Assembly (NCBI GenBank): GCA_021298195.1
Contig: JAJTEQ010000007.1
Location: 1-54,757 of the forward strand
Length of the DNA stretch: 54,757 nt
Direction: 5' to 3'
Origin: Ilumatobacteraceae bacterium
GTDB taxonomy: Bacteria > Actinomycetota > Acidimicrobiia > Acidimicrobiales > Ilumatobacteraceae
Shown here: piece after piece, positions 1 through 46,273 of the stretch
How the letters are laid out: each line of letters begins with the position of its first letter
Numbering within the stretch: the stretch's first letter is position 1
The notes under the pieces: model-generated
What the model saw: only the letters and a program-made list of their open reading frames with translations
Databases searched by the model: none
Told to the model about the DNA's origin: nothing
Translations under genes and position numbers: made by a program

Positions 1-25
1 GCGACTCTAGTGCAGGAGCCCCGAA

Positions 26-46
26 AATCTGACGGCCAGTCAGAAT
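26..46. promoter_or_regulatory. Palindromic operator, copy 1
   Basis: The 6-bp arms TCTGAC (28-33) and GTCAGA (39-44) are perfectly complementary around a 5-base spacer, and AA/AT flank them. The site lies just upstream of the proposed promoter of the TauD-family gene at 86 (CGGACA at 51-56, 17-base spacer, TATGTT at 74-79). The same palindrome occurs at 3688, 7627 and 10112. A TetR-like dimeric repressor is the likely ligand by inference; no regulator gene is visible nearby. Confidence 0.7.
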
Positions 47-85
47 CCGTCGGACACCAATCGTGGCAGGGGGTATGTTGGCGAA

Positions 86-907
86 ATGTCCGAAGTGAAG
101 GTGTCCGCACGGGTCTCGGTCGAGCGACTGGATGGTGCCTTGGGGGCGGTGGTCCAGGGGTTGCGGGTCTCCGATTACACGGACGACGATTTGCGCGAGT
201 TGGCCGATTCCTTGCTGCCGTGGTGGGACGAGCGATTGGTTCTGTTCTTCCCCGGGGCGCACTTCACGCCGTCGGATCAATCGCGTCTGGCTCGTTGCTT
301 CGGGAGCAAGGTCGCTGCCACCACCGAAACCGCCTCGGAGAATCGCAACATCCCCACCTTGCGCGACGAGGGATTCCCCGAGATCCTCGTGATCGATTCC
401 CACACTCCGGGTTTCAATCCCCACGTCACCGCCGTCTGGCACACCGACGTGCCGTTCATCGAGCAACCGCCCAAGGCATCGTTGTTTTATTGCGAGATCG
501 CCGCGGTCGGAGCGGGCGACACGATGTGGAACAACCAGATCGCGGCGTACCGTCGACTCAGCAAGCCGATGCAAAGACTCGTCGACGAATTGGAGGTCGT
601 CATGGGCACGCCTCCGCAGACGGGCACCCACGTTCATCCGTTCGTGCGACGTCATCATGCCTCGGGCGAGAAGTCGATCTTCGCCAACCGCGGCTGGACC
701 CGAAGCATCGTCGGAATGAGCGAGGTCGAGAGTCGGCACATCCTCGAGGCGGTCTACGCCATCTCGGAGCGCCCCGAGCACGTCGTGCGCTGGAAATGGA
801 CCAGTGGCGACGGAGCATTGTGGGACAACCGCTACACGATGCACTACGCGGTGGCGGACTACGGCACGCAACATCGACGAGTGCGTCGCGCCACGATCTA
901 CGCCTGA
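86..907 (+). CDS. TauD/TfdA-family Fe(II)/2-oxoglutarate dioxygenase
   Basis: The 273-residue protein is of typical length for the taurine/2,4-D dioxygenase family, cytosolic enzymes that use 2-oxoglutarate and O2 to hydroxylate a substrate and often release sulfite, sulfate or a phenol. The iron triad is visible: H119-x-D121 in WHTDVPF and the distal His253 (NRYTMHY), followed by the Arg-rich 2-oxoglutarate-binding end (around 264-268). The start ATG lies 6 bases after a TATGTT box (74-79), so the mRNA may be leaderless. It converges on the fadD3-like gene 16 bases downstream. The substrate cannot be read from sequence; family members act on taurine, alkyl sulfates, phenoxyacetates and others. 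Sharing the palindromic operator with acyl-CoA genes suggests a step in the same catabolic programme. Confidence 0.85.
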   Translation: MSEVKVSARVSVERLDGALGAVVQGLRVSDYTDDDLRELADSLLPWWDERLVLFFPGAHFTPSDQSRLARCFGSKVAATTETASENRNIPTLRDEGFPEILVIDSHTPGFNPHVTAVWHTDVPFIEQPPKASLFYCEIAAVGAGDTMWNNQIAAYRRLSKPMQRLVDELEVVMGTPPQTGTHVHPFVRRHHASGEKSIFANRGWTRSIVGMSEVESRHILEAVYAISERPEHVVRWKWTSGDGALWDNRYTMHYAVADYGTQHRRVRRATIYA

Positions 908-923
908 GGCGAACCCGCCGGGA

Positions 924-2456
924 TCAGCGCAGGCGTTCGCGCAACTCGAACTTCAGCACCTTGCCACTGGCGTTCAGAGGCAGTGACTCCACGAAGGTGA
1001 TGCCACGCGGAACCTTGTAATTGGCCATCCGCGTTCGTGCCCATTCGATGAGCTCGTCCGATCCCACGCTCTCGCCCGTTCGTCGAACGACGAAGGCATG
1101 CCCCACCTCGCCCATTCGCTCGTCGGGTCGACCGACCACCGCCACCTGGGCCACCGCCGGATGACCGAGCAGCGCGTTCTCGATCTCGGCCGGGTAGGCG
1201 TTGAACCCACCGACGATGAACATGTCCTTCAGGCGGTCGGTGATGGTCACGTATCCGCGCGTGTCCATGACGCCGATGTCGCCGGTGTGCAACCAGCCGT
1301 CGTCGTCGATGGTGTCGGCGGTGGCGACCGGGTCGGCGAAGTATCCGGGCATGACGTTGTAGCCGCGACACACGATCTCTCCGGCGGTTCCCCGCGGGAC
1401 CTCGACGTTGTTCTCGTCGACCACGCGCACCTCGATGTCGTCGATCGCCCGGCCACTGGTGGACGAGATGGTCTCGGGATCGTCGTCCTGTCGACACATC
1501 GTGATGGTGCCGGTGGACTCGGTGAGCCCGTACGCCGTGAGGATCACACGGAACGACAATTCCTCGCGCATGCGACGGATCATCTCCACGGGGACCGCGG
1601 CGGCGCCGGTGACCGCCAGGCGAAGCGACGAGAGGTCGAACGCGTCGCGCTCGGGGTGGTTCAGGATGCTGAGGTACAGCGTGGGCGGTCCGGGAAGCGC
1701 GGTGATGCGCTCGGTGCTCACCATCCTCAGAACGTTGGGAACGTCGAACACCGCCAGGGGCAACATCGCCGCGCCCCGCAACAGGCAGGCCAGGAATCCG
1801 GCCTTGTAGCCGAAGGTGTGGAAGAACGGATTGACGATGAGGTAGCGATCGTCCGCGTCGAGTCCGACGATCGCCGACCATTCCCGGAACACCCGGATCG
1901 TCTGATCGTGACGCGACATCACGCCCTTGGGGCGACCGGTGGTTCCCGACGTGAAGATGATGTCGCAGAGATCGTCGGGCCGCACGGCGACTTCGCGTTC
2001 GGCGAGCACCGACGCGGAGACGCCCTCCCCAGCACGGACGAAGTCGTTCCAGGAGGACCCGGCGACGTCGACCACGTGAACCAACGACGGTGTGGGATGA
2101 CCGCTCACCTCGGAGGAGTAGTCGATGTCGAGGAAGCCGTTCTGGACGAAGAGGAACGAGGCGCCGCTTCGTTCGATCACGTAGGCGGCCTCGGCGCCCT
2201 TGAAGCGGGTGTTGATCGGCACGAGCACGCCACCGACCATCTGCGCGCCGAGGGCGGCGAACATCCACTCCGGCGAGTTGGGTGCCCACACGGCCACCCG
2301 GTCATGGGGGGCGAGACCGAGGGCGATGAACGACCGCGCGCAACGTTCGACTTCGTGGACGAGTTCGCGGAACGTCCACCGACGATCACCCGCGACCAAC
2401 GCTTCACGGTCGCCGAACTCGGCGGCCGCCCGCACGACCTGCGGGATGGTGAGCAC
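924..2456 (-). CDS. fadD3-like: FadD3-like acyl-CoA synthetase (AMP-forming)
   Basis: This 510-residue acyl-AMP ligase converts a carboxylic acid, ATP and CoA to an acyl-CoA. The P-loop FTSGTTGRPKG is at 168-178, the AYGLTE motif lies near mid-protein, and the C-terminal catalytic Lys499 is in NASGKVLK. Segments such as NPFFHTFGYKAG and the LPGPPTLY block closely resemble mycobacterial FadD3, the HIP-CoA ligase that starts degradation of steroid rings C and D; this comparison is from memory, not a search. The start is GTG, 2 bases after the stop of the upstream amidohydrolase gene, so the two are surely co-transcribed from the operator-bearing promoter near 3690. It could instead act on another medium-chain or cyclic acid. 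Confidence 0.85.
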   Translation of the reverse strand: MLTIPQVVRAAAEFGDREALVAGDRRWTFRELVHEVERCARSFIALGLAPHDRVAVWAPNSPEWMFAALGAQMVGGVLVPINTRFKGAEAAYVIERSGASFLFVQNGFLDIDYSSEVSGHPTPSLVHVVDVAGSSWNDFVRAGEGVSASVLAEREVAVRPDDLCDIIFTSGTTGRPKGVMSRHDQTIRVFREWSAIVGLDADDRYLIVNPFFHTFGYKAGFLACLLRGAAMLPLAVFDVPNVLRMVSTERITALPGPPTLYLSILNHPERDAFDLSSLRLAVTGAAAVPVEMIRRMREELSFRVILTAYGLTESTGTITMCRQDDDPETISSTSGRAIDDIEVRVVDENNVEVPRGTAGEIVCRGYNVMPGYFADPVATADTIDDDGWLHTGDIGVMDTRGYVTITDRLKDMFIVGGFNAYPAEIENALLGHPAVAQVAVVGRPDERMGEVGHAFVVRRTGESVGSDELIEWARTRMANYKVPRGITFVESLPLNASGKVLKFELRERLR

Positions 2457-2458
2457 GA

Positions 2459-3667
2459 TTACTTGAGGTGCGTGATGCCGAGCATCTTGATGGCGTTGCC
2501 GCGGATCACCTTGTACACCTGCTCATCGGTGAGACCGAGGGTCTGCTCGTGCGCGATCTTGGCGGTGTGGGGCCACGTGGAGTCCGAGTGCGGGTAGTCG
2601 CACTCGTAGGTGACGTTGTCCTCACCGATCTCGACGAGCGAGCGCAGACCGTGCGGGTCGTCGAAGAAACATCCGTACACGTGCTTCTTGAACAACTCGC
2701 TCGGCGGCTCGAGAACCTTGTCGGCGATTCCACCCCAACCGCGGTTGTCCTCCCACACGCGGTCGGCGCGCTCGAGGATGTAGGGGATCCAGCCGATCTG
2801 GCCTTCGCTGTAGGCGATCTTCAGGTCGGGGAACTGCGTGAAGTGTCCGCTCATCAGCCAGTCGACCATGCTGAAGCAGCAGTTGGCGAACGTGAGCGTC
2901 GAACCCACGGCGGCCGGGGCATCGGGCGACGTGCTGGGCATCTTGGATCCGGATCCGATGTGCATGCAGATGACGGTGCCGGTGTCGTTGCAGGCCTCGA
3001 AGAACGGCAACCAGTAGCCGTCGGCATCGTGGATGCTGGGCAGGTTGAGGTTCGAGGGGATCTCGCTGAAGGCCACGGCGCGGAAGCCACGCGCGGCGTT
3101 GCGACGAATCTCATCGGCGGCGGCCTGCGGATCCCACAGCGGGATGAGGCCCAACGGCAACATGCGACCACCGGACTCGCCGCACCACTCGTCGTGCATC
3201 CAGTCGTTGTAGGCGTGCACGCCGAGCATGGCGAGCTCCTTGTCCTGGGCCTCGTAGAAGGTCTGGCCACAGAAACGGGGGAACGTGGGGAAGCAGAGCG
3301 AGGCCTCGATGCCCGCGACGTCCATGTCCTCGAGTCGTTCCTTCAACTTGTAGCTGCCCTGACGCATCTCGTCGTAGGTGATGCCGGTGACGGTGACTTC
3401 GTCGCGTTCGAAACCGACGGCGGTGTCGAGGCGCGTGAGCGGACGACGCAGGTCCTCGTAGAACCACCAGTCGGCCAACGGGCCCTCGTCACCCTTCTCG
3501 CCGGGGATGGCGGTGAACTTGCCGCCGATGAACGTCATCTCCTTGACGGGGAGGCGCTCGATGCGCGGGCCCACGTCGTGGTACTTCTTCGGGAGGCGGT
3601 CGGTCCAGACCGTGGCCGGCTCGGTCACGTGGTCGTCGACGGAAATGATCTTGGGCAGTTCACGCAT
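2459..3667 (-). CDS. Amidohydrolase-2 family metal-dependent hydrolase
   Basis: The 402-residue protein belongs to the amidohydrolase TIM-barrel superfamily (decarboxylase/hydrolase type). It starts MRELPKIISV, followed at once by the metal-binding strand with Asp11-Asp12-His13 (DDHVTEP); a central His (MHIGSG) and the C-terminal DYPHSDS block with the conserved Asp are also visible. Paralogs of this family are common beside acyl-CoA genes in actinobacteria, where their substrates are mostly unknown. I chose the ATG at 3667 because it lies 7 bases after a TACCCT box (3680-3675) and just before the conserved DDH strand; the reading frame continues further upstream but only through the divergent promoter. 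It is first in an operon with the fadD3-like ligase. Confidence 0.8.
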   Translation of the reverse strand: MRELPKIISVDDHVTEPATVWTDRLPKKYHDVGPRIERLPVKEMTFIGGKFTAIPGEKGDEGPLADWWFYEDLRRPLTRLDTAVGFERDEVTVTGITYDEMRQGSYKLKERLEDMDVAGIEASLCFPTFPRFCGQTFYEAQDKELAMLGVHAYNDWMHDEWCGESGGRMLPLGLIPLWDPQAAADEIRRNAARGFRAVAFSEIPSNLNLPSIHDADGYWLPFFEACNDTGTVICMHIGSGSKMPSTSPDAPAAVGSTLTFANCCFSMVDWLMSGHFTQFPDLKIAYSEGQIGWIPYILERADRVWEDNRGWGGIADKVLEPPSELFKKHVYGCFFDDPHGLRSLVEIGEDNVTYECDYPHSDSTWPHTAKIAHEQTLGLTDEQVYKVIRGNAIKMLGITHLK

Positions 3668-3687
3668 GCAGGGGAGGGTAGCACCCG

Positions 3688-3708
3688 AATCTGACGGTGT
3701 GTCAGATT
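3688..3708. promoter_or_regulatory. Palindromic operator, copy 2 (divergent promoter)
   Basis: This is the best copy of the set: AATCTGAC and GTCAGATT form perfect 8-bp arms around the spacer GGTGT. It sits between the divergent amidohydrolase-fadD3 operon and the luciferase-family gene. It covers the -35 region expected for the minus-strand promoter (-10 TACCCT at 3680-3675) and lies just upstream of the plus-strand promoter (-10 TACTCT at 3741-3746). One bound dimer could therefore control both directions. Confidence 0.8.
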
Positions 3709-3752
3709 CTGCGCGTGATCCGTCTGAGCAGGGCCGGGGGTACTCTCGACCC

Positions 3753-4676
3753 ATGTCCACGACCCCGCCCTCGACGCCCACGACGTCCCGCCGGATGACG
3801 GTGGGGGTGGCCCTGCCGCAGATGGCCGAGGGCCTCGATCGGGATCGACTGCGGGCCTGGTGTCGGGGGGTCGACGAGGGCCCATTTTCCAGCCTGTCGG
3901 CGGGCGAGCGCATCACGTTCCACAACCTCGACGGCTTCACCCTGTGCACCGCCGCCGCGGCCCTGACCGAGCGGGTGCGCATCCTGGTGAACGTCGCCGT
4001 GTTGCCATGGCACGCACCGGCGTTGGTGGCCAAGGAACTGGCGTCGATGGACGTGGTGTCGGGCGGACGCGTCGAGGTGGCGGTCGGTGTGGGAGGACGC
4101 CAGCAGGATTATGCGGCGTTGGGGTCGCCGTTCGCCGGTCGGCATCGGCGTCTCGACGAGGCAGTGGTGGAGATGAAGCGGTTGTGGGCCGGTGGAGCGG
4201 CCGCCGACGGCGAGCGGGTGGGTCCGGCGCCGTTGCAAGCCGGTGGTCCGCCGATACTGGCGTCGGCGATGGGGCCCAAGTCGTTGGCTCGCGCGGCCAA
4301 GTGGGCGATCGGCGTGAGTGGCTTCACCTTGCTCGGTGACGCGAAGGAGGCGGCGAAACTGTTCCGCGCCACCGAGGCGGCGTGGTCCGACGCCGGACGC
4401 ACCGACGCGCCCCGACTCGTCACCGGATCGTTCGTGGCGCTCGGCGACGCGGCGACGTCGACGTTGCGGAACTTCGCCGAGGCGTACCTGAAGGTGTTCT
4501 CACCGGAGTTGGCCAAGGGCCTCTCCGAAGCGATGCCACTTCACGATCCGTCGGCCTTGGCCGATCTGCTCGACGCGGTCGAAGCGGCCGGTGCCGACGA
4601 GTTCATCGTGGTGCCGGCCACCAGTGATCCGCGCATGCTCGATCGACTCACGGAGGTCGTCGCCGCGCGACGATGA
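3753..4676 (+). CDS. Luciferase-like (LLM) flavin/F420-dependent oxidoreductase
   Basis: The 307-residue protein is of the bacterial-luciferase TIM-barrel superfamily, which includes F420-dependent reductases and FMNH2-dependent monooxygenases such as SsuD. The N-terminal strand MTVGVALPQ, the region RVRILVNVAVLPWHAP with the following VAKELASMDVVSGGR, and GVGGRQQDYAALG are typical. The ATG at 3753 lies 6 bases after TACTCT (3741-3746), the leaderless geometry; a second ATG at 3795 sits closer to the conserved core and cannot be excluded. The gene diverges from the amidohydrolase operon and shares its operator. It ends 10 bases from the convergent TauE/SafE gene. Cofactor and substrate cannot be assigned from the sequence. 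Confidence 0.8.
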   Translation: MSTTPPSTPTTSRRMTVGVALPQMAEGLDRDRLRAWCRGVDEGPFSSLSAGERITFHNLDGFTLCTAAAALTERVRILVNVAVLPWHAPALVAKELASMDVVSGGRVEVAVGVGGRQQDYAALGSPFAGRHRRLDEAVVEMKRLWAGGAAADGERVGPAPLQAGGPPILASAMGPKSLARAAKWAIGVSGFTLLGDAKEAAKLFRATEAAWSDAGRTDAPRLVTGSFVALGDAATSTLRNFAEAYLKVFSPELAKGLSEAMPLHDPSALADLLDAVEAAGADEFIVVPATSDPRMLDRLTEVVAARR

Positions 4677-4686
4677 GAACGGCGCG

Positions 4687-5466
4687 TCAGCTGGAGGTGT
4701 CGCGCCGCAGATCGACGATCATTCGCGCCGCCACCACCAACACCAGCGAGGCGAACAGGATGTTCGACAGGTCCTCGGACATCAGATCGGCGATCACGCC
4801 TCCGGCGACCGCCGAGGCGACACCACCGAAGCCGACGATGGCGGCCACCTTCAGGTCGATGTTGTCGGCCTTCCAGTTGCGCCAGGTTCCCATGATGGAC
4901 GTGGGGATGATGACCGCGACCGACGTTCCCTTGGCCACCACGTTCAATTCGCTGAAGAACACGATCATCGCCGGCACCATCACCACTCCACCACCGATGC
5001 CGAGCAGGCCGGCGAGCGTTCCGGTGACCAGGCCGATGGCCACCAGGGCGATCGCCGTCACCGCCGTGATGGCGTCGCGACCGTCGGCCGTCATGGGGAT
5101 GAAGAGTCGAATGGCGGTGGCGATCAGCATCACCGCGAAGAGGTGACCGAGCACTTTGCGCGGAAGCATGTGGATCCATTTGGTGCCGAGAATCGCGCCC
5201 CCCAGAGCGCCGACGACCAGCCACAGCGCCATCGCCCAATCCACGTTGTCGTGGCTCCAATAGGTGAAGAGGCTGGCCACCGAGATCGGAAGCACCGCAC
5301 CGAGCGACGTGCCATTGGCGAGTCGCTGATCGAAGCGCAACATCATCACCAGAGCGGGGACGACGAGGATTCCTCCACCGACGCCGAACATGCCCGACAG
5401 GAGCCCGGCGCCCACACCGATGGCGACGACGCGCCCGACCGAATACCGGGCGACGTCGGATGGCAT
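4687..5466 (-). CDS. TauE/SafE family sulfite/sulfonate exporter
   Basis: The 259-residue integral membrane protein has two repeats typical of TauE/SafE, each with a Gly-rich first helix: GAGLLSGMFGVGGG near residue 18 and GTLAGLLGIGGG near residue 152. About seven or eight hydrophobic helices are visible. Family members export sulfite, sulfoacetate or other small organosulfur anions, though many have unknown cargo. It is the third gene of the minus-strand operon fadE31-like, fadE32-like, tauE, starting 17 bases after the dehydrogenase stop. That location makes export of an anion released during the catabolism plausible, but this is inference. Confidence 0.8.
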   Translation of the reverse strand: MPSDVARYSVGRVVAIGVGAGLLSGMFGVGGGILVVPALVMMLRFDQRLANGTSLGAVLPISVASLFTYWSHDNVDWAMALWLVVGALGGAILGTKWIHMLPRKVLGHLFAVMLIATAIRLFIPMTADGRDAITAVTAIALVAIGLVTGTLAGLLGIGGGVVMVPAMIVFFSELNVVAKGTSVAVIIPTSIMGTWRNWKADNIDLKVAAIVGFGGVASAVAGGVIADLMSEDLSNILFASLVLVVAARMIVDLRRDTSS

Positions 5467-5483
5467 GGGACAGTTCTAGCCGA

Positions 5484-6443
5484 TCAGGCCAGAACGAATC
5501 CGGAAACGCGACGACGATGGAAGTTGGCGTCTCCGTACGAACGCATGAGTGCCCAGGACTTCTTCATGAAGAGTTGCAAATCGGCTTCCCACGTGTAGCC
5601 GATTCCACCGTGCACCTGCATGGTGCTGCGACTGGTGCGGTAGGCCGCCTCACTGGCGAGCGCCTTGGCCATGCTGATGTCGCGGACCATCGTGTCGGCC
5701 CCGATGGAGGCCGAGAACGCCGCGCGATACGTGGGCGCCTTGGCGAACTCGACCTTGAGCAGTGCATCGGACATGAGGTGCTTCACCGCCTGGAACGATC
5801 CGATCGGTTTGCCGAACTGTTCGCGCACGCGGGCGTACTCGGCCGCGATCTCGATCATGCGCTCGGAGAGTCCGATCAGATACGCGGCCGAGGCCAACGC
5901 CATGGCATCGAACGGATCGAGGCCGGCGACGTTCGGGGTGGCATCCGTGCGATCGCCACCGCTGACGGTGAACAAACGACGACCGCCGTCCATGCCGTGA
6001 GCGTCGGTCGATTGGAAGGATTCGAGCACGTGATCGTCGCGCAGGATCAGGTCGGCCACGCCGGCGTGCGCCACGTACGGAGAGTCGTCCACCCACAACG
6101 TCGCGATGGAGTCACCCGCGATCAGCGACGCGCCGAACGTCGTGGAGGCCAAGGCCGGTACGGCGACCGCCATGTGTTCGAGCACCGGGCCCGGCACGGC
6201 CGCTCGACCGAGTTCCTGGAAGAGCAGGATGGCGTCCACGAAGGAGCCGCCCATGCCGCCGTCGGCTTCGGGTGCGAGCATCGAGAGCACCCCCATGCCC
6301 GACAGGTGCGCCCACAGTTCGGGGGAGTGGCCGGTGCCGTTCTCCCAGACGTCGCGCACCAGCGTCGGCGGGCACTCGTTGGCGAGCAGTTCGCGCAATC
6401 CCTCGGCGAAGAGTCGTTGGTCGTCGGTGAAGGAGAACTTCAT
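5484..6443 (-). CDS. fadE32-like: Acyl-CoA dehydrogenase, FadE32-like small subunit
   Basis: The 319-residue protein has the acyl-CoA dehydrogenase fold (N-terminal helices, middle beta domain shortened, C-terminal helices). The C-terminal part shows YARVREQFGKPIGSFQ and VHGGIGYTWE, typical of the subunit that pairs with a longer partner in the alpha2-beta2 dehydrogenases of steroid catabolism (FadE26/27, 28/29, 31/32 types). It starts 3 bases after the stop of the longer dehydrogenase, so the two are likely made in equal amounts and assembled together. The middle domain is short compared with the usual 380-residue family. The particular resemblance to FadE32 is inferred from its partner and order, not shown by a search. 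Confidence 0.8.
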   Translation of the reverse strand: MKFSFTDDQRLFAEGLRELLANECPPTLVRDVWENGTGHSPELWAHLSGMGVLSMLAPEADGGMGGSFVDAILLFQELGRAAVPGPVLEHMAVAVPALASTTFGASLIAGDSIATLWVDDSPYVAHAGVADLILRDDHVLESFQSTDAHGMDGGRRLFTVSGGDRTDATPNVAGLDPFDAMALASAAYLIGLSERMIEIAAEYARVREQFGKPIGSFQAVKHLMSDALLKVEFAKAPTYRAAFSASIGADTMVRDISMAKALASEAAYRTSRSTMQVHGGIGYTWEADLQLFMKKSWALMRSYGDANFHRRRVSGFVLA

Positions 6444-6446
6444 GGC

Positions 6447-7595
6447 TCACATTCCCTTGGGCAACTGCAGGACGCGGTCGGCGATGATGTTGCGCTGGAT
6501 CTCGTTGGTGCCGGCGTAGATGGGACCGCTCAACGAGAAGAGGAATCCGTCCACCCAACGCTCGAGGGGACCCTCCATGCGTTCGGCCTCCGGCCCGATG
6601 ATCTGCAGCGCGATCTCGTGGATGCGCACGTCCATCTCGCTCCAGAAGATCTTGTTCAGACTGGCCTCGGCGCCGATCGGGCGACCCTCCAACATTCCGG
6701 TGACCGTCTGGTAGGTGTGCAGGCGATAACCCTCGGCCTGCATCCAGACGTCGGTGACGGCGTCGGCGAGCGCGGTGTCGGATTTGTCACCGAGTCGCTT
6801 CCACAAAGCCACCAGTCGATTGACGGCTTCGCTGAATCGCGCCGGACTGCGCAGGCTGACTCCGCGCTCGAAGCCGGCGGTCGCCATGGCGACGCCCCAT
6901 CCCTTGTTCACCTCACCGAGTGTGTTCTCGACCGGTACACGCACGTCGTCGAAGAAGATCTCGGCGAAGCCGGTGTCACCATCGAGTTGAGCGATGGGGC
7001 GCACCGTGATGCCGGGCAGATCGAGTGGGCACAGGATGAAGGTGAGCCCGCGGTGACGTTCGGCCTCGGGGTCGGTGCGGAAGATGCCGAAACACCAGTC
7101 GGCCCACACGGCGCGACTGGCCCAGATCTTCTGGCCGTTCAGGATCCAGTCGTCGCCGTCACGCAGGGCCTTGCTCTTGATGCCCGCCAGATCGCTGCCC
7201 GCGTTCGGTTCGCTCCACGCCTGGCCCCACACGATCTCCGACGAGGCCATCGTGGGGAGGAACCTCTCCTTCTGCGCCTCGGTGCCCACTTCCATGATGG
7301 TGGGACCGAGGAGGAAGATGCCGTTCTGGTTCACGCGACCGGGTGCGCCGGCGCGGTAGTACTCCTCCTCGAAGATGAGCCACTTGATGTAGTCGGCGCC
7401 GCGACCGCCGTACTGCTCCGGCCACGACACCGCCGACCAGCGACCGTCGTACAACTTCTTCTCCCACTGACGATGCCGAGCGAAGCCCTCGGCGGTGTCG
7501 AAGCTGGGAAGAGGTTCGGCGGGGACGTTGGCTTCCAACCACGTGCGAGCCTCGAGGCGGAAAGCGGACTCGTCGGCGGTTTCGCGCAGATCCAT
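6447..7595 (-). CDS. fadE31-like: Acyl-CoA dehydrogenase, FadE31-like large subunit
   Basis: The 382-residue flavoprotein oxidises an acyl-CoA to the enoyl-CoA. Visible are WSEPNAGSDLAG (FAD/substrate loop near 127), the block GDTGFAEIFFDDVRVP and the C-terminal YAGTNEIQRNIIADRVL. The Glu that is the base in medium-chain enzymes (YEGT motif) is Ala here, while Glu243 in GFERG is in place to act as the alternative base. Segments such as RAGAPGRVNQNG and RPIAQLDGDTGF resemble mycobacterial FadE31, an enzyme of steroid ring C/D breakdown (comparison from memory). It heads the operon with the small subunit and TauE. A TAACGT box (7610-7605) and the palindrome at 7627 lie upstream. Confidence 0.85.
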   Translation of the reverse strand: MDLRETADESAFRLEARTWLEANVPAEPLPSFDTAEGFARHRQWEKKLYDGRWSAVSWPEQYGGRGADYIKWLIFEEEYYRAGAPGRVNQNGIFLLGPTIMEVGTEAQKERFLPTMASSEIVWGQAWSEPNAGSDLAGIKSKALRDGDDWILNGQKIWASRAVWADWCFGIFRTDPEAERHRGLTFILCPLDLPGITVRPIAQLDGDTGFAEIFFDDVRVPVENTLGEVNKGWGVAMATAGFERGVSLRSPARFSEAVNRLVALWKRLGDKSDTALADAVTDVWMQAEGYRLHTYQTVTGMLEGRPIGAEASLNKIFWSEMDVRIHEIALQIIGPEAERMEGPLERWVDGFLFSLSGPIYAGTNEIQRNIIADRVLQLPKGM

Positions 7596-7626
7596 AAGAG
7601 CCAGACGTTAGTCGCCACCTCCGAGA

Positions 7627-7647
7627 AATCTGACGCTGTGTCAGAAA
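7627..7647. promoter_or_regulatory. Palindromic operator, copy 3 (divergent promoter)
   Basis: Arms TCTGAC (7629-7634) and GTCAGA (7640-7645) are perfect around the spacer GCTGT. The site lies between the divergent fadE31 operon (start 7595) and the acyltransferase-SGNH gene (start 7698). It covers the place where the -35 element of the minus-strand promoter should be (-10 TAACGT, 7610-7605) and lies upstream of the plus-strand -10 TAATCT (7685-7690). Confidence 0.75.
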
Positions 7648-7697
7648 ACGACTCACGGGCACATCGCCTCGTGGTGGCCACAAGTAATCTCGCCCTC

Positions 7698-10109
7698 GTG
7701 GGGGAGACATCGGGCGTCGGCCCGTCGCGCATCGACGCCCTGGACGGCCTACGAGCCGTGGCCGTGACGGCCGTGGTGCTGTTCCACCTCGACCTCGCGT
7801 GGATGCCGGGCGGTTTCCTCGGAGTGTCGTTGTTCTTCACGTTGTCCGGATTCCTCATCACCCGACTTCTGGTGGCCGAGACGGCTCGGGACGGACGGGT
7901 GGCGCTGCGGGTCTTCTGGGCCCGTCGCCTTCGGCGACTGTCGCCGGCGGCCCTGGTGGTGCTGGCCGTCGTCGCGATCGCGTCGCTGTGGGGGGTGTTC
8001 GAGGGCGCCCGGTTGCGCGGGGATCTGGGTGCGTCGCTGGGCTACGTGGCGAACTGGCGGTTCGCCACCGCGGAATCCACCTACGCGGAACTCTTCACGT
8101 CGACTCCGTCACCCGTGATCCACTTCTGGAGCCTCGCGATCGAGGAACAGTTCTATCTGCTCTTCCCATTGGTGTTCCTCGTGTTGTCGAGAAGGCGCGC
8201 GCTGTTGTTGCCGGGGTTGGTGGTGCTCGCCGGGGTCAGCGTCGTGGCGTCCTTTCTCACCGACTCGCGAAATCTCGGCTACTACGGCACCCATGTGCGG
8301 GCCGCCGAGCTGCTCATCGGATGCGTTCTGGCGGTCGTCGTCACTCGTCGCGCGACGACGAGTTCGTCATCGCGCACCTCGACGGTGACCTCGATCGCCG
8401 GTGTCGGGGCCTTCGGTGCCTTGGTGCTGGCCATGGTTCTGGTCTCGGCATCGGACGCGTGGCTCTACCGCGGAGGATTGGCGGCGGTCGGGGTCGGGTC
8501 GGCGATGGTGATTCACGCCGCGAGCGGGACCGGGCCGCTGGCGTGGGTGTTCTCGCGTCGTCCGCTGGTGATGGTTGGTCGCGCCAGCTACTCCATCTAT
8601 CTCGTTCACTGGCCGTTGATCGTGGTGATGAGCCCGGATCGCATGGGCTTCGACGGCTGGTCGCTGGACGTGGTGCGGATCGCCGCGAGCGTGTCCCTCG
8701 GGTTCGTCTCGCACCTGATGATCGAGAACCCGGTGCGAACGCGACGCGTGCTGAAGCGCACCACGATCGCCGGCGCGGCATTGATCGCCTCCATGGTGAG
8801 CGTCGCGACGTTGACGGCCCTCGTCGACGCACCGCGTTCGGTGGTTCTGGCCGGCCTCGATGCGCCGGAGGAAGTGGTCGACTTCGCCACGACGAACCCC
8901 GACACCGCCGGCAACGTGACCACGACCATGGCGGCACCGTTGCCACGAGTGTTGGTGATCGGATCGCAATTGCGCGCGGGAGTGGACCTCTCGCGATCGG
9001 CCGTGAACGCCGACATCGTCGATCGGAGCACTCCGGGGTGCCCGTTCCGGCTCGCGTCGGTGAGCGACTGTTCGGCGGTCGTCGATCCCCTGACGCTGGC
9101 GTCCACCGAAGCGCCCGACGTGATCATCATCGGGGTCGGCGCGATCGAACGCCGGGTCGTGCGCGAGCGGGTGGCGGCCAACGAACCGACGACCACGGTC
9201 GACCCCGCGGTCGCCGAGATTCTCGAAGCGGGCATCGTGGTGGACGAGATGCTGGAACCGTTCGTGGACATGCCGGTGATCGTGGTCGATTACGGAGCGT
9301 CCGACGGGTTCCGTGGGGCACTGGAGGACTTCGATCTTCGCTCGGACTCGACCGTGGTGGTGGTCGGCGGAAACCCCGAGCGACTGGGTGCGACGATCGA
9401 CGAGATCTTGTCCGATGCCCGAGCGAACCTGGCCCGAGTGATGGTCATCGGCGATTCGTCGTCGTTCGGTGTGGCGCAGGCGTTGCACAACGTGGCCGCG
9501 GACCGATTCGAGGTGGTGTGGGCCGGCGGACGCAACTGTCCGCTGGTCGAGGTGGAGCGGATCCAATGGTGGCCCGACATGGACTTCGACATGAATTATT
9601 GCCCCACCTTCGACACGGTGTGGCGCGACATGATCGCCGAGTTCGAACCGCATCTGGTTCTGGAGATCGCGTCGGTTCCCGAGCAGGCGGCGCAGCGATA
9701 TCCGGGTGATCCGAATTGGTACACGATCGGGGACGAGGAGTTCCTCGTGCGCCACGAACTCGTGATGTCGTCGTTGATGGCGGCGATCGATGACGCCGGC
9801 GCCACGCTCGTGATGTTCGACAGTCCGTACATCCATGGTGGGGCATTGGGTGGAGCGACGTTCGCCGACGAGGCTCGGGTGGATGCGTGGAACGCGTTGA
9901 TGGAGTCCTGGATCCTGCGGTGGCCCGAGATCCGCCGATTGGGTTGGTCGGCCATCGTTTCCGCGGCGGAATCGACGCCGGGCGAGCTCCGTGCCGACGG
10001 GGTGCACATGGAACAGTCCGTCCTCGACCGAATCGTCGCCGAGAGTGTGGTTCCGCGACTTCGTGAGGTGTTGACCGAACGCGAAATGAGCCCGACCGCC
10101 GCACCGTGA
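7698..10109 (+). CDS. Acyltransferase-3 membrane protein with C-terminal SGNH domains
   Basis: The protein has 803 residues from the GTG at 7698. The N-terminal half is an OafA/YrhL-type acyltransferase-3 domain of about ten membrane helices; the active-site Arg19 and His30 (DGLRAVAV, VLFHLD) and the SLAIEEQFYLLFPL segment are clear. The C-terminal extracytoplasmic part ends in an SGNH esterase-like domain with GDS at 585-587 and the Asp767-x-x-His770 pair. An earlier segment around 420 (VLVIGSQLRAG) looks like a second, degenerate copy. Such proteins transfer acetyl or other acyl groups to surface glycans. The start is chosen because TAATCT (7685-7690) lies 7 bases ahead (leaderless geometry); in-frame GTG codons at 7671 and 7674 are alternatives. 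Further upstream the frame merely runs antisense through the fadE genes. Confidence 0.8.
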   Translation: MGETSGVGPSRIDALDGLRAVAVTAVVLFHLDLAWMPGGFLGVSLFFTLSGFLITRLLVAETARDGRVALRVFWARRLRRLSPAALVVLAVVAIASLWGVFEGARLRGDLGASLGYVANWRFATAESTYAELFTSTPSPVIHFWSLAIEEQFYLLFPLVFLVLSRRRALLLPGLVVLAGVSVVASFLTDSRNLGYYGTHVRAAELLIGCVLAVVVTRRATTSSSSRTSTVTSIAGVGAFGALVLAMVLVSASDAWLYRGGLAAVGVGSAMVIHAASGTGPLAWVFSRRPLVMVGRASYSIYLVHWPLIVVMSPDRMGFDGWSLDVVRIAASVSLGFVSHLMIENPVRTRRVLKRTTIAGAALIASMVSVATLTALVDAPRSVVLAGLDAPEEVVDFATTNPDTAGNVTTTMAAPLPRVLVIGSQLRAGVDLSRSAVNADIVDRSTPGCPFRLASVSDCSAVVDPLTLASTEAPDVIIIGVGAIERRVVRERVAANEPTTTVDPAVAEILEAGIVVDEMLEPFVDMPVIVVDYGASDGFRGALEDFDLRSDSTVVVVGGNPERLGATIDEILSDARANLARVMVIGDSSSFGVAQALHNVAADRFEVVWAGGRNCPLVEVERIQWWPDMDFDMNYCPTFDTVWRDMIAEFEPHLVLEIASVPEQAAQRYPGDPNWYTIGDEEFLVRHELVMSSLMAAIDDAGATLVMFDSPYIHGGALGGATFADEARVDAWNALMESWILRWPEIRRLGWSAIVSAAESTPGELRADGVHMEQSVLDRIVAESVVPRLREVLTEREMSPTAAP

Positions 10110-10111
10110 GT

Positions 10112-10130
10112 AATCTGACGACGTGTCAGT
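10112..10130. promoter_or_regulatory. Palindromic operator, copy 4, over the -10 box and start codon
   Basis: TCTGAC (10114-10119) and GTCAG (10125-10129) flank a 5-base spacer; the last base of the right arm is T instead of A. The probable -10 box TAATCT (10111-10116) overlaps the left arm and the GTG start (10123-10125) overlaps the spacer and right arm. A bound protein would directly block RNA polymerase here. Confidence 0.7.
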
Positions 10131-10614
10131 TTCCGCCGCCGGGGGAGTCACCCGGGTTCCCGCCGTCGAAGGGTGGTACACCCTCGATCACGAGCCGCAT
10201 CTGATCGGATGTCGTTGTGCCGCGTGTGGCACGTACGTCTTCCCGCCTCGCTCGGGTGCCTGTCCGAATCCGAACTGTGACAGTGAGGAACTGGTGGCGA
10301 CGCCGTTGTCTCGGGTGGGCACGGTGTGGAGTTACACCGAGAACCAGTACGCGCCTCCGGCGCCGTACCGCGCCGCCGAACCCTTCGAGCCCTACGCGCT
10401 CGCCGCGGTGCAACTGGAGAAGGAAGGCATCATCGTGCTCGGCCAGGTGCCCAAGGGAATCATGGCCGCCGATCTGAAGGTGGGCATGCCGATGCAGCTG
10501 GAAACCGACGTGTTGTATCGCGAGGTGGTCGACGGCGTCGACACCGAGTTCATGGTCTACGTGTGGGCACCGGCGGGACCCTCCGCCGCCGAGTCGATCG
10601 GAGGACGGTCATGA
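10123..10614 (+). CDS. DUF35 (Zn-ribbon/OB-fold) acyl-CoA-associated protein
   Basis: The 163-residue protein has an N-terminal rubredoxin-like zinc ribbon (CRCAAC near 30, then a Cys pair in CPNPNC) and a C-terminal OB fold with ALAAVQLEKEGIIVLGQV. DUF35 proteins form complexes with lipid-transfer-protein thiolases; in steroid side-chain degradation the DUF35 part of ChsH2 activates the aldolase Ltp2. The next gene is exactly such a thiolase and overlaps this one by 4 bases (ATGA), supporting a complex. The GTG start is 6 bases after TAATCT, so translation probably begins at the first base of the mRNA, inside the operator. Catalytic role on its own is unlikely. Confidence 0.85.
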   Translation: MSVSAAGGVTRVPAVEGWYTLDHEPHLIGCRCAACGTYVFPPRSGACPNPNCDSEELVATPLSRVGTVWSYTENQYAPPAPYRAAEPFEPYALAAVQLEKEGIIVLGQVPKGIMAADLKVGMPMQLETDVLYREVVDGVDTEFMVYVWAPAGPSAAESIGGRS

Positions 10615-11810
10615 GCGATCGCGATCTCGTGGTGCTCGGAGTGGGCATGCACCCGTGGGGCAAGTGGGGTCGCGATTTCACCGAGTACGGAATGGTCGCC
10701 GCCCGTGCGGCACTGAAGGATGCCGGCATCGAATGGAAGGACGTCGAGTACGTCGCCGGAGCCGACACGATCCGTAACGGATACCCCGGTTTCATCGCCG
10801 GTTCGACGTTCGCTCAGAAATTGGGATGGAACGGCGCGAGCATCTCGTCGAACTACGCGGCGTGCGCCAGCGGCGCTCACAGTTTGCAGGCCGCCCGCGC
10901 CTCGATCCTGGCCGGCTTCTGCGACGTGGCGATGGTGATCGGTGCCGACACCACGCCCAAGGGGTTCTTCGCCCCGGTCGGCGGAGAGCGCAAGACCGAT
11001 CCCGACTGGTTGCGCTTCCATCTGCTGGGAGCCACCAACCCGGTGTACTTCGCCATGTTCGCCCGTCGTCGCATGGATCTGTACGGAGCGACGTCGGAGG
11101 ACTTCGCTCGGGTGAAGGTGAAGAACTCGCGGCACGGGCTCAACAACCCCTACGCGCGATTCCGCAAGGAGAACGCGATCGAGGACGTGTTGAACAGTCC
11201 GATCGTCAGCGATCCGTTGCGACTGCTCGACATCTGCGCCACGTCCGACGGGGCGGCCGCGATGATCGTCACCAGCCGGGCCTACGCCGAGAGGAAGTTG
11301 GGTTCGCTGAACGGCGTTCCGCGCATTCGCGCGGTCAGCACCGTGACGCCCACGTACCCGCAGACGATTCTCGAGTTGCCCGACTTCGCCACCGACTCCA
11401 CGGCGGTCGTCTCGCCGCCCGCGCGGGGCTTCAAGGATTCCCTCTGCTGGGCCGCGTACGAAGAAGCCGGAATGTCGCCCTCCGACATGAACATGGCCGA
11501 GGTGTACGACCTCTCCACGGCTCTGGAATTGGATTGGTACGAGCACCTCGGATTGTGCGCCCCCGGTGAGGCCGAAGGGCTTCTGCGTTCGGGTGCCACC
11601 GCCATCGGTGGTCGCGTGCCGGTGAACCCGAGTGGTGGCTTGTCGTGCTTCGGCGAGGCCATCCCCGCCCAGGCCATCGCCCAGGTGTGCGAACTCACGT
11701 GGCAATTGCGCGGACAGGCCCAAGGTCGTCAGGTGGAAGGCGCCAAGGCCGGCATCACCGCCAATCAAGGTCTGTTCGGCAACGGTTCCTCGGTCATCGT
11801 CTCGGTCTGA
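10611..11810 (+). CDS. Ltp-type thiolase/aldolase (lipid-transfer protein-like)
   Basis: The 399-residue protein has the thiolase fold of the SCP-x/Ltp group. The nucleophile-region ACASGA, the NPSGGLSCFGEAI block (which replaces the classical GHPxGAT of degradative thiolases) and NQGLFGNGSSVIVSV at the C terminus are visible. Members paired with DUF35 proteins act as retro-aldolases or non-classical thiolases on CoA esters of sterol side chains and related acids. The start ATG overlaps the DUF35 stop, so the two are translationally coupled. The missing His of the GHP motif argues against ordinary acetyl-CoA thiolysis. Exact substrate unknown. Confidence 0.85.
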   Translation: MSDRDLVVLGVGMHPWGKWGRDFTEYGMVAARAALKDAGIEWKDVEYVAGADTIRNGYPGFIAGSTFAQKLGWNGASISSNYAACASGAHSLQAARASILAGFCDVAMVIGADTTPKGFFAPVGGERKTDPDWLRFHLLGATNPVYFAMFARRRMDLYGATSEDFARVKVKNSRHGLNNPYARFRKENAIEDVLNSPIVSDPLRLLDICATSDGAAAMIVTSRAYAERKLGSLNGVPRIRAVSTVTPTYPQTILELPDFATDSTAVVSPPARGFKDSLCWAAYEEAGMSPSDMNMAEVYDLSTALELDWYEHLGLCAPGEAEGLLRSGATAIGGRVPVNPSGGLSCFGEAIPAQAIAQVCELTWQLRGQAQGRQVEGAKAGITANQGLFGNGSSVIVSV

Positions 11811-11836: not shown

Positions 11837-12997
11837 ATGGCTTCCAACATTCCCACCGCGTACATCGTCGATGCCGTCCGCACCCCGGTCGGTCGTCGCG
11901 GTGGCGGTCTGTCCGCCGTTCACCCCGCCGATCTCGGGGCGCACAGCATCAAGGCGTTGATGGATCGCACCGGTGTCGACCCCAACGCCGTCGACGACGT
12001 CGTGTTCGGCAACGTGGACTCCGTCGGCCCGCAGGCCGGCTGCATCGCCCGCACCTGCTGGTTGACCGCCGGTCTGCCCGAGCACGTGCCCGGCACCACC
12101 ATCGATCGTCAGTGCGGCTCGGCGCAGCAGTCGGTGCACTTCGCCGCGCAAGCCGTCATGAGCGGAACCATGGATCTGGTCGTGGCCGGTGGCGTGCAGA
12201 ACATGAGCATGATCCCGATCTCGTCGGCCATGACCGCCGGTCAGGCCCTCGGTTTCGAGGATCCCTTCACCGGCTCACCGGGTTGGACCACGCGTTACGG
12301 CACTGGTGAGGTCAGCCAGTTCGTCGGGGCCGAGATGATGGTCGCGAAGTGGAACCTGTCGCGCGAGGAGATGGAGGAGTTCGCGGTCGAGTCGCACCTG
12401 CGCGCCATCAAGGCCCGCGCCGAGGGCCGTTTCGAGGCCGAGATCGAACCCTTGAACGGTGTTCAGCACGACGAAGGTCCGCGCGAGCCGAACTGGGACA
12501 AGATCCGTTCGTTGCCCACGCTCACCCCCGATGGTCGTCTCACCGCGGCCTGCGCCAGTCAGATCTCCGACGGCTCGGCGGCCTTGTTGATCGCCAACGA
12601 AGCGGCCGTGAAGACCCACGGCCTGAAGCCCCGCGCGCGCATTCATCACATGAGCGTGCTGGCCGACGACCCGATCATGATGTTGTCGGCGCCCATCCCG
12701 GCCACCAAGCGCGCCTTGGCCAAGACCGGCATGTCCATCGACGACATCGACTTGGTGGAGATCAACGAGGCCTTCGCTCCCGTCGTGATGGCGTGGATGC
12801 GTGAGACCGGATTCGACCGCGCCAAGGTGAACGTGAACGGTGGGGCGATCGCTCTCGGTCACCCGCTGGGTGCCACCGGGGCCCGTTTGATGACCACTCT
12901 TCTGCACGAACTCGAGCGCACCGGCGGCCGCTACGGCCTGCAGACGATGTGCGAGGGTGGCGGTCAGGCCAACGTCACCATCATCGAACGCCTCTGA
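11837..12997 (+). CDS. fadA6-like: FadA6-like acetyl-CoA acyltransferase (thiolase)
   Basis: This 386-residue classical thiolase cleaves a 3-ketoacyl-CoA to acetyl-CoA and a shortened acyl-CoA. The nucleophilic Cys is in TIDRQCGSAQQS (near 93), the GHPLGATGA His block is near 338 and CEGGGQANVTIIERL is C-terminal. Stretches such as QNMSMIPISSAMT and INEAFAPVVMAW closely match what I recall of M. tuberculosis FadA6, used in steroid ring C/D degradation. A TAGGGT box (11825-11830) sits 6 bases before the ATG, so besides read-through from the DUF35-thiolase operon it probably has its own leaderless promoter; the TCTGAC palindrome is not seen there. Confidence 0.88.
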   Translation: MASNIPTAYIVDAVRTPVGRRGGGLSAVHPADLGAHSIKALMDRTGVDPNAVDDVVFGNVDSVGPQAGCIARTCWLTAGLPEHVPGTTIDRQCGSAQQSVHFAAQAVMSGTMDLVVAGGVQNMSMIPISSAMTAGQALGFEDPFTGSPGWTTRYGTGEVSQFVGAEMMVAKWNLSREEMEEFAVESHLRAIKARAEGRFEAEIEPLNGVQHDEGPREPNWDKIRSLPTLTPDGRLTAACASQISDGSAALLIANEAAVKTHGLKPRARIHHMSVLADDPIMMLSAPIPATKRALAKTGMSIDDIDLVEINEAFAPVVMAWMRETGFDRAKVNVNGGAIALGHPLGATGARLMTTLLHELERTGGRYGLQTMCEGGGQANVTIIERL

Positions 12998-35364: not shown

Positions 35365-35438
35365 TGGCTCCGGGGAGAGGGCTCGAACCCCTATTCTCTG
35401 AACCAAAATCAGCTGTCCTACCATTGGACGACCCCGGA
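35365..35438 (-). tRNA. tRNA-Gln (anticodon TTG)
   Basis: The minus strand folds as a full cloverleaf: acceptor TCCGGGG/CCCCGGA, anticodon loop TTTTGGT with TTG at 35406-35404, T loop GTTCGAGCC, and a genome-encoded CCA end (35367-35365). It lies between glmU and the divergent bS22 gene. Confidence 0.95.
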
Positions 35439-46187: not shown

Positions 46188-46273
46188 GCCCGGGTGGCGG
46201 AATTGGCAGACGCGGGGGGCTTAAACCCCCCTTCCCCTCGCGGGGAGTGTGGGTTCGAACCCCACCCCGGGCA
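46188..46273 (+). tRNA. tRNA-Leu (anticodon TAA)
   Basis: An 86-base class II tRNA: acceptor GCCCGGG/CCCGGGC, anticodon loop CTTAAAC with TAA at 46222-46224, a long variable arm (TTCCCCTCGCGGGGAG) and T loop GTTCGAACC. No CCA is encoded, unlike the tRNA-Gln in this window. Confidence 0.95.

Follow-up and report, generated by a model that had tools for sequence, protein, structure and literature searches.

Which regulator reads a short palindrome, TCTGAC-N5-GTCAGA, that recurs ahead of acyl-CoA-type genes in an Ilumatobacteraceae bacterium, and what do those genes do? The palindrome lies in a stretch of 54,757 nt (contig JAJTEQ010000007.1 of assembly GCA_021298195.1; hereafter the window), where a reading of the letters alone (the sequence-only reading) had taken four copies as the mark of an undescribed catabolic regulon. 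Scans of the genome and of its class indicate that the palindrome is probably the operator of a TetR-family repressor. The gene of this protein lies on the adjoining contig C15, and it would control a dispersed regulon for sterol/steroid-type catabolism as well as its own operon. The regulon is real and conserved, and its candidate regulator is well supported.

Palindrome sites in the window and across the genome

The four sites of the window, to which no strand is assigned, are as follows.

28..44, Operator 1: TCTGAC-GGCCA-GTCAGA, exact; between TauD (+) and, over the contig end, the ADH-ligase-SDR-SDR-TetR operon (-)
3690..3706, Operator 2: TCTGAC-GGTGT-GTCAGA, exact; divergent promoter
7629..7645, Operator 3: TCTGAC-GCTGT-GTCAGA, exact; divergent promoter
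10114..10130, Operator 4: TCTGAC-GACGT-GTCAGT, one mismatch (last base T); overlaps GTG 10123

The varying spacers GGCCA, GGTGT, GCTGT and GACGT read back as first given, and that of Operator 2 is identical in the sister genome G275. The claim of constant arms holds for the three exact copies and fails for the fourth, whose right arm ends in T. In the window alone, 15 places with up to three mismatches compare with a shuffle mean of 27.6; there is no excess at this level, the excess being confined to exact copies. Operator 4 had been placed over the -10 box of the DUF35 operon. It more likely covers the start codon, as judged from the reading frame and the position of the domain: GTG 10123 is the sole in-frame ATG, GTG or TTG start ahead of the DUF35 zinc-ribbon domain. 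A simple sigma-70 scan of positions 1-11000, uninformative for such an organism, returned no promoter-like site, and the proposed -35 and -10 placements are unconfirmed.

The genome (2.39 Mb in 107 contigs, 90.9% complete) holds 13 exact places and 7 with one mismatch, 20 in all. With one mismatch allowed, the reversed pattern used as a control gives a single place, read on both strands. The 114 terminal bases of contig C15 are the 114 opening bases of the window, and the gene order around site 28-44 is contiguous in G275 (L125); the two contigs are confirmed neighbours. Because of this overlap, the exact place on C15 and window site 28 are counted as one. For the resulting 12 distinct exact sites, the base composition of the stretches that were fetched predicts 0.078, which rules out a chance origin of the palindrome.

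A palindrome as frequent inside genes or ahead of unrelated genes as at these promoters would speak against a regulon; the genome scan shows no such pattern. All 12 exact sites are intergenic and mostly precede acyl-CoA-type genes, as called by a gene finder that overextends or misses some genes (none called in L124) and leaves start positions uncertain. They form 11 promoter regions, 9 of which separate divergent genes, and lie 11-102 bases from the nearest called gene start. This spacing is as expected for a repressor; activation would also be possible. Among the seven one-mismatch places, three are within genes (C9, C59 and C99) and one is between unrelated genes (C104), and these four agree with a chance expectation of 3.2. 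The others, at window 10114, C84:55738 and C96:11670, are plausible members of the regulon.

The 12 own and 99 foreign exact sites define an extended operator, WTCTGACGNNNCGTCAGAW. Its first spacer position is G in 71% of own and 79% of foreign exact sites, and A or T flanks every own half-site and about 86% of the foreign ones. The site at C96:11670 reads TCTGATACCGTGTCAGA on the opposite strand, a form also met in relatives, where the spacer is ACCGT or ACGGT; the recurrence of TCTGAT-ACSGT-GTCAGA in L104, L154, L157, L158, L160 and L171 suggests a conserved variant site. On C94, between the genes for an MFS transporter and a substrate-binding protein, two exact palindromes stand in tandem (L022:1141-1178), 21 bases from start to start or about two helical turns. 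G281:C33 likewise has two exact palindromes spaced 21 bases.

Gene content of the regulon and its substrate

The genes at each site are listed below.

Window 28, exact: TauD; ADH-ligase-SDR-SDR-TetR operon
Window 3690, exact: LLM; amidohydrolase-FadD3
Window 7629, exact: acyltransferase; FadE-IpdE2-like-TauE
C58, exact: string of acyl-CoA dehydrogenase, ChsH2-like fusion and acyl-CoA dehydrogenase
C69, exact: amidohydrolase; SnoaL
C80, exact: P450; TauD
C85, exact: FadE; FadE-SDR-EchA-like
C91, exact: string of EchA20-like, IpdA, IpdB, nitronate-monooxygenase-like and MaoC; SDR
C94, two exact: substrate-binding protein; MFS transporter
C94, exact: amidohydrolase
C96, exact: SDR; quinone oxidoreductase-like gene
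Window 10114, one mismatch: DUF35, lipid-transfer protein and thiolase
C96, one mismatch: SDR; SDR-amidohydrolase-CasI-like ligase
C84, one mismatch: FadE

The sequence-only reading had the palindrome always at promoters of lipid/CoA-type genes. This is mostly so, beta-oxidation or steroid-type genes following most of the sites, and the regulon proves wider, with lower-pathway and side-chain steroid-type genes; the site-linked transporter, SnoaL and acyltransferase genes are not catabolic in themselves. The assignment to steroids is based on four kinds of match. IpdA and IpdB match PDB 6con_A (E 2.9e-97) and 6co6_B (E 2.6e-74), entries that we take to be IpdAB, the C/D-ring CoA transferase. 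The ChsH2-type fusion matches PDB 4wnb and 6ok1. FadD3, the lipid-transfer protein, the thiolase, the EchA20-type hydratase and an SDR score above their family cut-offs, the PRK models being equated with Rv gene names. The IpdE2-like and CasI-like matches are weaker and beneath cut-off.

Two sets of observations weigh against this assignment. KshA (PF19298, KshA_C) was found neither in the own genome, at 90.9% completeness, nor in G275 or G161, and G281, G091 and G153 gave matches below cut-off only, which leaves full steroid-ring degradation unsupported. In addition, an unnamed P450 (3tkt), P450tol and P450terp resemble the P450 at the C80 site more closely than CYP125 does. The same observations would suit a real regulon that serves another polycyclic or terpenoid lipid rather than sterols or steroids, as would the presence of TauD, amidohydrolases and LLM oxidoreductases, which are not typical KstR or KstR2 genes. 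We regard this alternative as possible but rather unlikely. Against it stand the strength of the IpdA and IpdB matches, the EchA20-type hydratase and SDR above their cut-offs, and the architecture of the ChsH2 fusion. KshA also reappears in other carriers of the C15-type TetR: PF19298 exceeds its cut-off in 7 of the 13 TetR carriers examined (in one of them, G157, at no more than 31.9 bits), with strong KshA_C matches in other families, and in a Myxococcota record the TetR gene directly follows a KshA_C-domain gene, near ChsH2-type DUF35 and lipid-transfer-like genes.

The gene content is partly shared outside the genus. At 81 loci (including, of those from the class palindrome scan, L045-L065 only; genes under 80 residues and the genus mates G275 and G281 excluded), a relative with 45% identity or more in the own regulon was found for 47 of 171 site-linked genes, compared with 28 of 589 for the other genes at these loci; the remaining 124 site-linked genes lack one at this level. 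For the window amidohydrolase (2459..3667), 6 other genomes have a relative with 45% identity or more that is preceded by a site.

Three further features of these loci were noted. A Rieske oxygenase of non-KshA type closes the IpdAB gene string (L021:14894-16045), a histone-deacetylase-family gene (L021:6178-7215) directly follows the site-linked SDR, and the CasI-like ligase (L023:7830-9521) contains a short in-frame direct duplication that may be real or an assembly error.

The candidate regulator

The TetR gene (C15:12039-12671) encodes 211 residues with TetR_N and TetR_C_38 domains. Its N-terminal helix-turn-helix scores 36.2 bits against PF00440 (cut-off 24), and the protein scores 20.2 bits against TetR_C_24, beneath the cut-off of 26.4. 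It is the last gene of the ADH-ligase-SDR-SDR-TetR operon (-), which starts at window site 28-44, as follows from the 114-base contig overlap and the contiguous order in G275. The TetR-like gene with the same site at its own promoter, for which the sequence-only reading had called, is thus found, at the promoter of its operon. Among 16 TetR_N hits in the own genome, one (C15:12486-12602) falls within this operon. The closest solved sequence to the TetR profile, among the best 60 of 97 PDB matches, is EthR (PDB 3qpl and 1t56; E 3.6e-15). EthR, which controls ethA, is a distant sequence match of unrelated function. Across 52 aligned TetR sequences (52 of 54 found; L121 and L137 excluded), conservation in the recognition stretch SPATFYxYF is complete or at least 90%.

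In relatives the palindrome also occurs directly ahead of the TetR gene itself. Of the 69 other TetR carriers, 53 were compared, and 13 of these have a site with up to two mismatches in the 150 bp upstream of the gene, as against 0 of 53 for the reversed pattern; in 10 of the 13 the first base of the site is 31-42 nt ahead of the script-chosen start codon. Other genes of 40 fetched neighbourhoods, regulon members included, have an upstream site in 46 of 590 cases (reversed pattern, 0 of 590). Of the 40 TetR neighbourhoods, 28 contain a site with one mismatch or none.

Co-occurrence of TetR and palindrome across the class

That TetR follows the palindrome across the class is supported by a scan of 296 genomes, 70 of which have a TetR relative (E 1e-20 or better) and 99 the exact palindrome. 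At least three sites are present in 47 of the 70 genomes with TetR and in 0 of the 226 without; the total is 319 sites against 41, the doubled site of the own genome being counted twice. TetR and IpdA are themselves strongly correlated, 65 genomes being common to the 70 with TetR and the 83 with IpdA, and the comparison was therefore also made within IpdA-carrying genomes. Here at least three sites are found in 46 of 65 genomes with TetR and in 0 of 18 without it. Within family f35, IpdA-carrying genomes have 8, 6, 8, 3, 6, 2 and 7 sites with TetR and 1, 0, 0 and 0 without; in family f36 the contrast is weaker (2, 2, 0, 1, 0, 2 and 4 versus 0, 1 and 1).

The correlation with IpdA, together with the promoter-distal place of TetR at the end of its operon here, would suit a different arrangement, in which another regulator binds the palindrome and TetR is merely a passenger gene of the same steroid-type pathway, tied to the sites by pathway co-occurrence alone. 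This is improbable, given that the sites track TetR among IpdA-carrying genomes and that in other families they directly precede the TetR gene. Another TetR of the own genome, taken as a control, has the weaker link (at least three sites in 6 of 15 genomes with it versus 41 of 281 without). The other 15 TetR_N hits all lie off the contigs with exact sites, the genome-wide search for regulators having covered the TetR family.

Several observations nevertheless weigh against the C15 TetR as the regulator. The control TetR does show some link of its own, and the Fisher tests treat genomes as independent, ignoring relatedness. Two sites or fewer are present in 23 of the 70 TetR-carrying genomes, and 9 of the 70 have no exact site. 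Among the eight of these nine that were covered (all except G150), G244, G036, G096 and G139 have a site with one or two mismatches near TetR in a neighbourhood of 11-20 kb; G048 and G064 have none with up to two mismatches in such a neighbourhood; and in the short loci of G119 and G158 the best match in the 250 bp upstream has 6 and 3 mismatches, respectively. No site at up to one mismatch was found in 12 of the 40 TetR neighbourhoods, and for 40 of the 53 TetR genes the stretch directly upstream is free of near sites; some of these genes lie within longer operons, as here. The C15 TetR is still the regulator that we consider probable.

Relation to known regulators

The genes echA20 and fadD3 belong to the KstR2 regulon, and the sites of the new palindrome precede IpdAB/EchA20/FadD3-type genes, a trait of that regulon. 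Regulators of bacterial steroid breakdown are few, a 'very short list' (PMC8700777). Like the system proposed here, the KstR2 regulon of mycobacteria and Rhodococcus combines a TetR repressor, a short palindrome at divergent promoters and at its own promoter, and IpdAB-type lower steroid genes (PMC3068626). It differs in its operator, AnCAAGnnCTTGnT, and in having three sites per genome (PMC3068626). The operator here has longer arms (TCTGACG) and a 3-base centre, its sites are more scattered (12 exact), and side-chain-type genes are included.

The sequence-only reading had set the palindrome apart from both KstR-type operators, rightly so, since neither motif is enriched in the own genome: the KstR2 operator occurs at 3 places (C3, C37 and C99) versus 11 for its control, none of them at the IpdAB or FadD3 loci, and the KstR operator, TnnAACnnGTTnnA, at 15 versus 30. 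That the regulon is one of KstR or KstR2 whose operator has drifted, with the C15 TetR as the ortholog, is very improbable despite the overlap in gene content (ipdAB is named in the KstR2 regulon, PMC5380842) and the TetR nature of KstR2, likewise with short palindromes at divergent promoters (PMC3068626). In addition, the C-terminal domain is TetR_C_38, none of the best 60 of 97 PDB matches, which EthR leads and many of which have generic chain names, is named KstR or KstR2, and at E 1e-30 the TetR is found in just 28 of 386 genomes of the phylum (10 of the own class, 11 of one genus).

Other known systems are likened more loosely. KstR3 of Mycolicibacterium neoaurum resembles the present case in that the repressor gene lies in a sterol side-chain operon with DUF35, aldolase and acyl-CoA dehydrogenase genes; its deletion upregulates four clustered genes, unlike the regulon here, and the likeness is one of gene setting; the words 'palindrome' and 'motif' are absent from its text (PMC10398937). 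The KstR regulon shares TetR control of sterol catabolic genes and differs in operator. The alphaproteobacterium Caenibius offers a further comparison. Its EdcR is likewise a TetR protein that represses the catabolism of a steroid (estrogen) and has a palindrome; the proposed operator, TnnCnnTACnAnTnGTAnnGnnA, is different (PMC8700777). As to the regulon being undescribed, no description of the operator pattern or the regulon was found among the matches listed in one open-access literature library; the claim stands within that single library. The main text of PMC4810484 contains 0 occurrences of Acidimicrob or Ilumatobacter.

Reach beyond the class

Among the best 80 of 562 confirmed stretches from named genomes, the TetR occurs mostly in Acidimicrobiia-type metagenome bins (Acidimicrobiales, Ilumatobacteraceae, acIV and Actinomycetota), then in Streptomyces and in a few Proteobacteria, Deltaproteobacteria and Myxococcota bins. 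At 33 Streptomyces/Wenjunlia loci a site with up to one mismatch is present in 19, versus 0, 0, 0, 0, 0 and 2 for six control palindromes; at two mismatches the count is 27, versus 2, 2, 2, 2, 6 and 8. Four of five other records have a site, versus 0 for the control. TetR relatives in Streptomyces and in Myxococcota lie close to such sites. This TetR is also found, at 46-79% identity, in records titled 'MAG: Bifidobacterium breve' (L148, L149, L171 and L173); these titles appear to be mistaken, and Acidimicrobiia may be the source of the bins.

Genes of the window

The genes around the four sites are the following.

86..907, +, TauD/TfdA-type dioxygenase (PF02668)
924..2456, -, FadD3-type acyl-CoA ligase (NF005801, 750.7 bits, cut-off 657)
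2459..3667, -, amidohydrolase, first gene of its operon (PF04909)
3795..4676, +, LLM-class (F420-type) oxidoreductase (TIGR03619, 117 bits, below cut-off 166.9)
4687..5466, -, TauE/SafE-family membrane protein (PF01925)
5484..6443, -, acyl-CoA dehydrogenase, IpdE2-like (NF050027, 162 bits, below cut-off 450)
6447..7595, -, acyl-CoA dehydrogenase, partner FadE (TIGR03204, 222.5 bits, below cut-off 623.9)
7671..10109, +, membrane acyltransferase, start codon uncertain (PF01757, gene call)
10123..10614, +, DUF35 protein, zinc ribbon and OB fold, ChsH2 C-terminal type (PF12172 and PF01796)
10611..11810, +, lipid-transfer protein/thiolase-fold DUF35 partner (NF004715, 741.7 bits, cut-off 424)
11837..12997, +, acetyl-CoA C-acetyltransferase (NF005865, 679.7 bits, cut-off 591)

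An Rfam scan of the window matched tRNAs only, two genes at 46188-46273 (+) and 35368-35438 (-).

Proposed mechanism and significance

The sites, their promoter position, the gene content, the co-occurrence of TetR with sites and the sites upstream of TetR in relatives were computed directly; from them we infer binding, repression rather than activation, and the ligand. The most likely arrangement is an autoregulated TetR-type repressor with the operator WTCTGACGNNNCGTCAGAW, binding being predicted from the sequence. A TetR dimer would bind this operator at about 14 promoter regions (11 exact, 3 with one mismatch) and block transcription of the catabolic regulon and of its own operon. Since the TetR gene ends an operon under its own control, the loop would be self-limiting. 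At the fourth window site, which covers the only usable start codon of DUF35, the bound protein would stop transcription at initiation or during early elongation. TetR would be released by an intermediate of the pathway, probably an acyl-CoA thioester; an acyl-CoA is the likeliest signal, given that such intermediates also release KstR and KstR2 (PMC8700777).

This is TetR-controlled steroid-type catabolism outside the KstR and KstR2 operator classes. More tentatively, one TetR-operator pair may govern sterol side-chain and C/D-ring catabolism across a mostly uncultured class, separately from KstR and KstR2, and may have spread to Streptomyces and Myxococcota; in this small-genome genus it would run a partial pathway on steroid fragments released by others, not on whole sterols. 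An operator readable in 19 bases gives a handle on unannotated steroid-type genes in uncultured Acidimicrobiia, known mostly as metagenome bins, and the pathway membership of such genes becomes predictable from their promoters alone.

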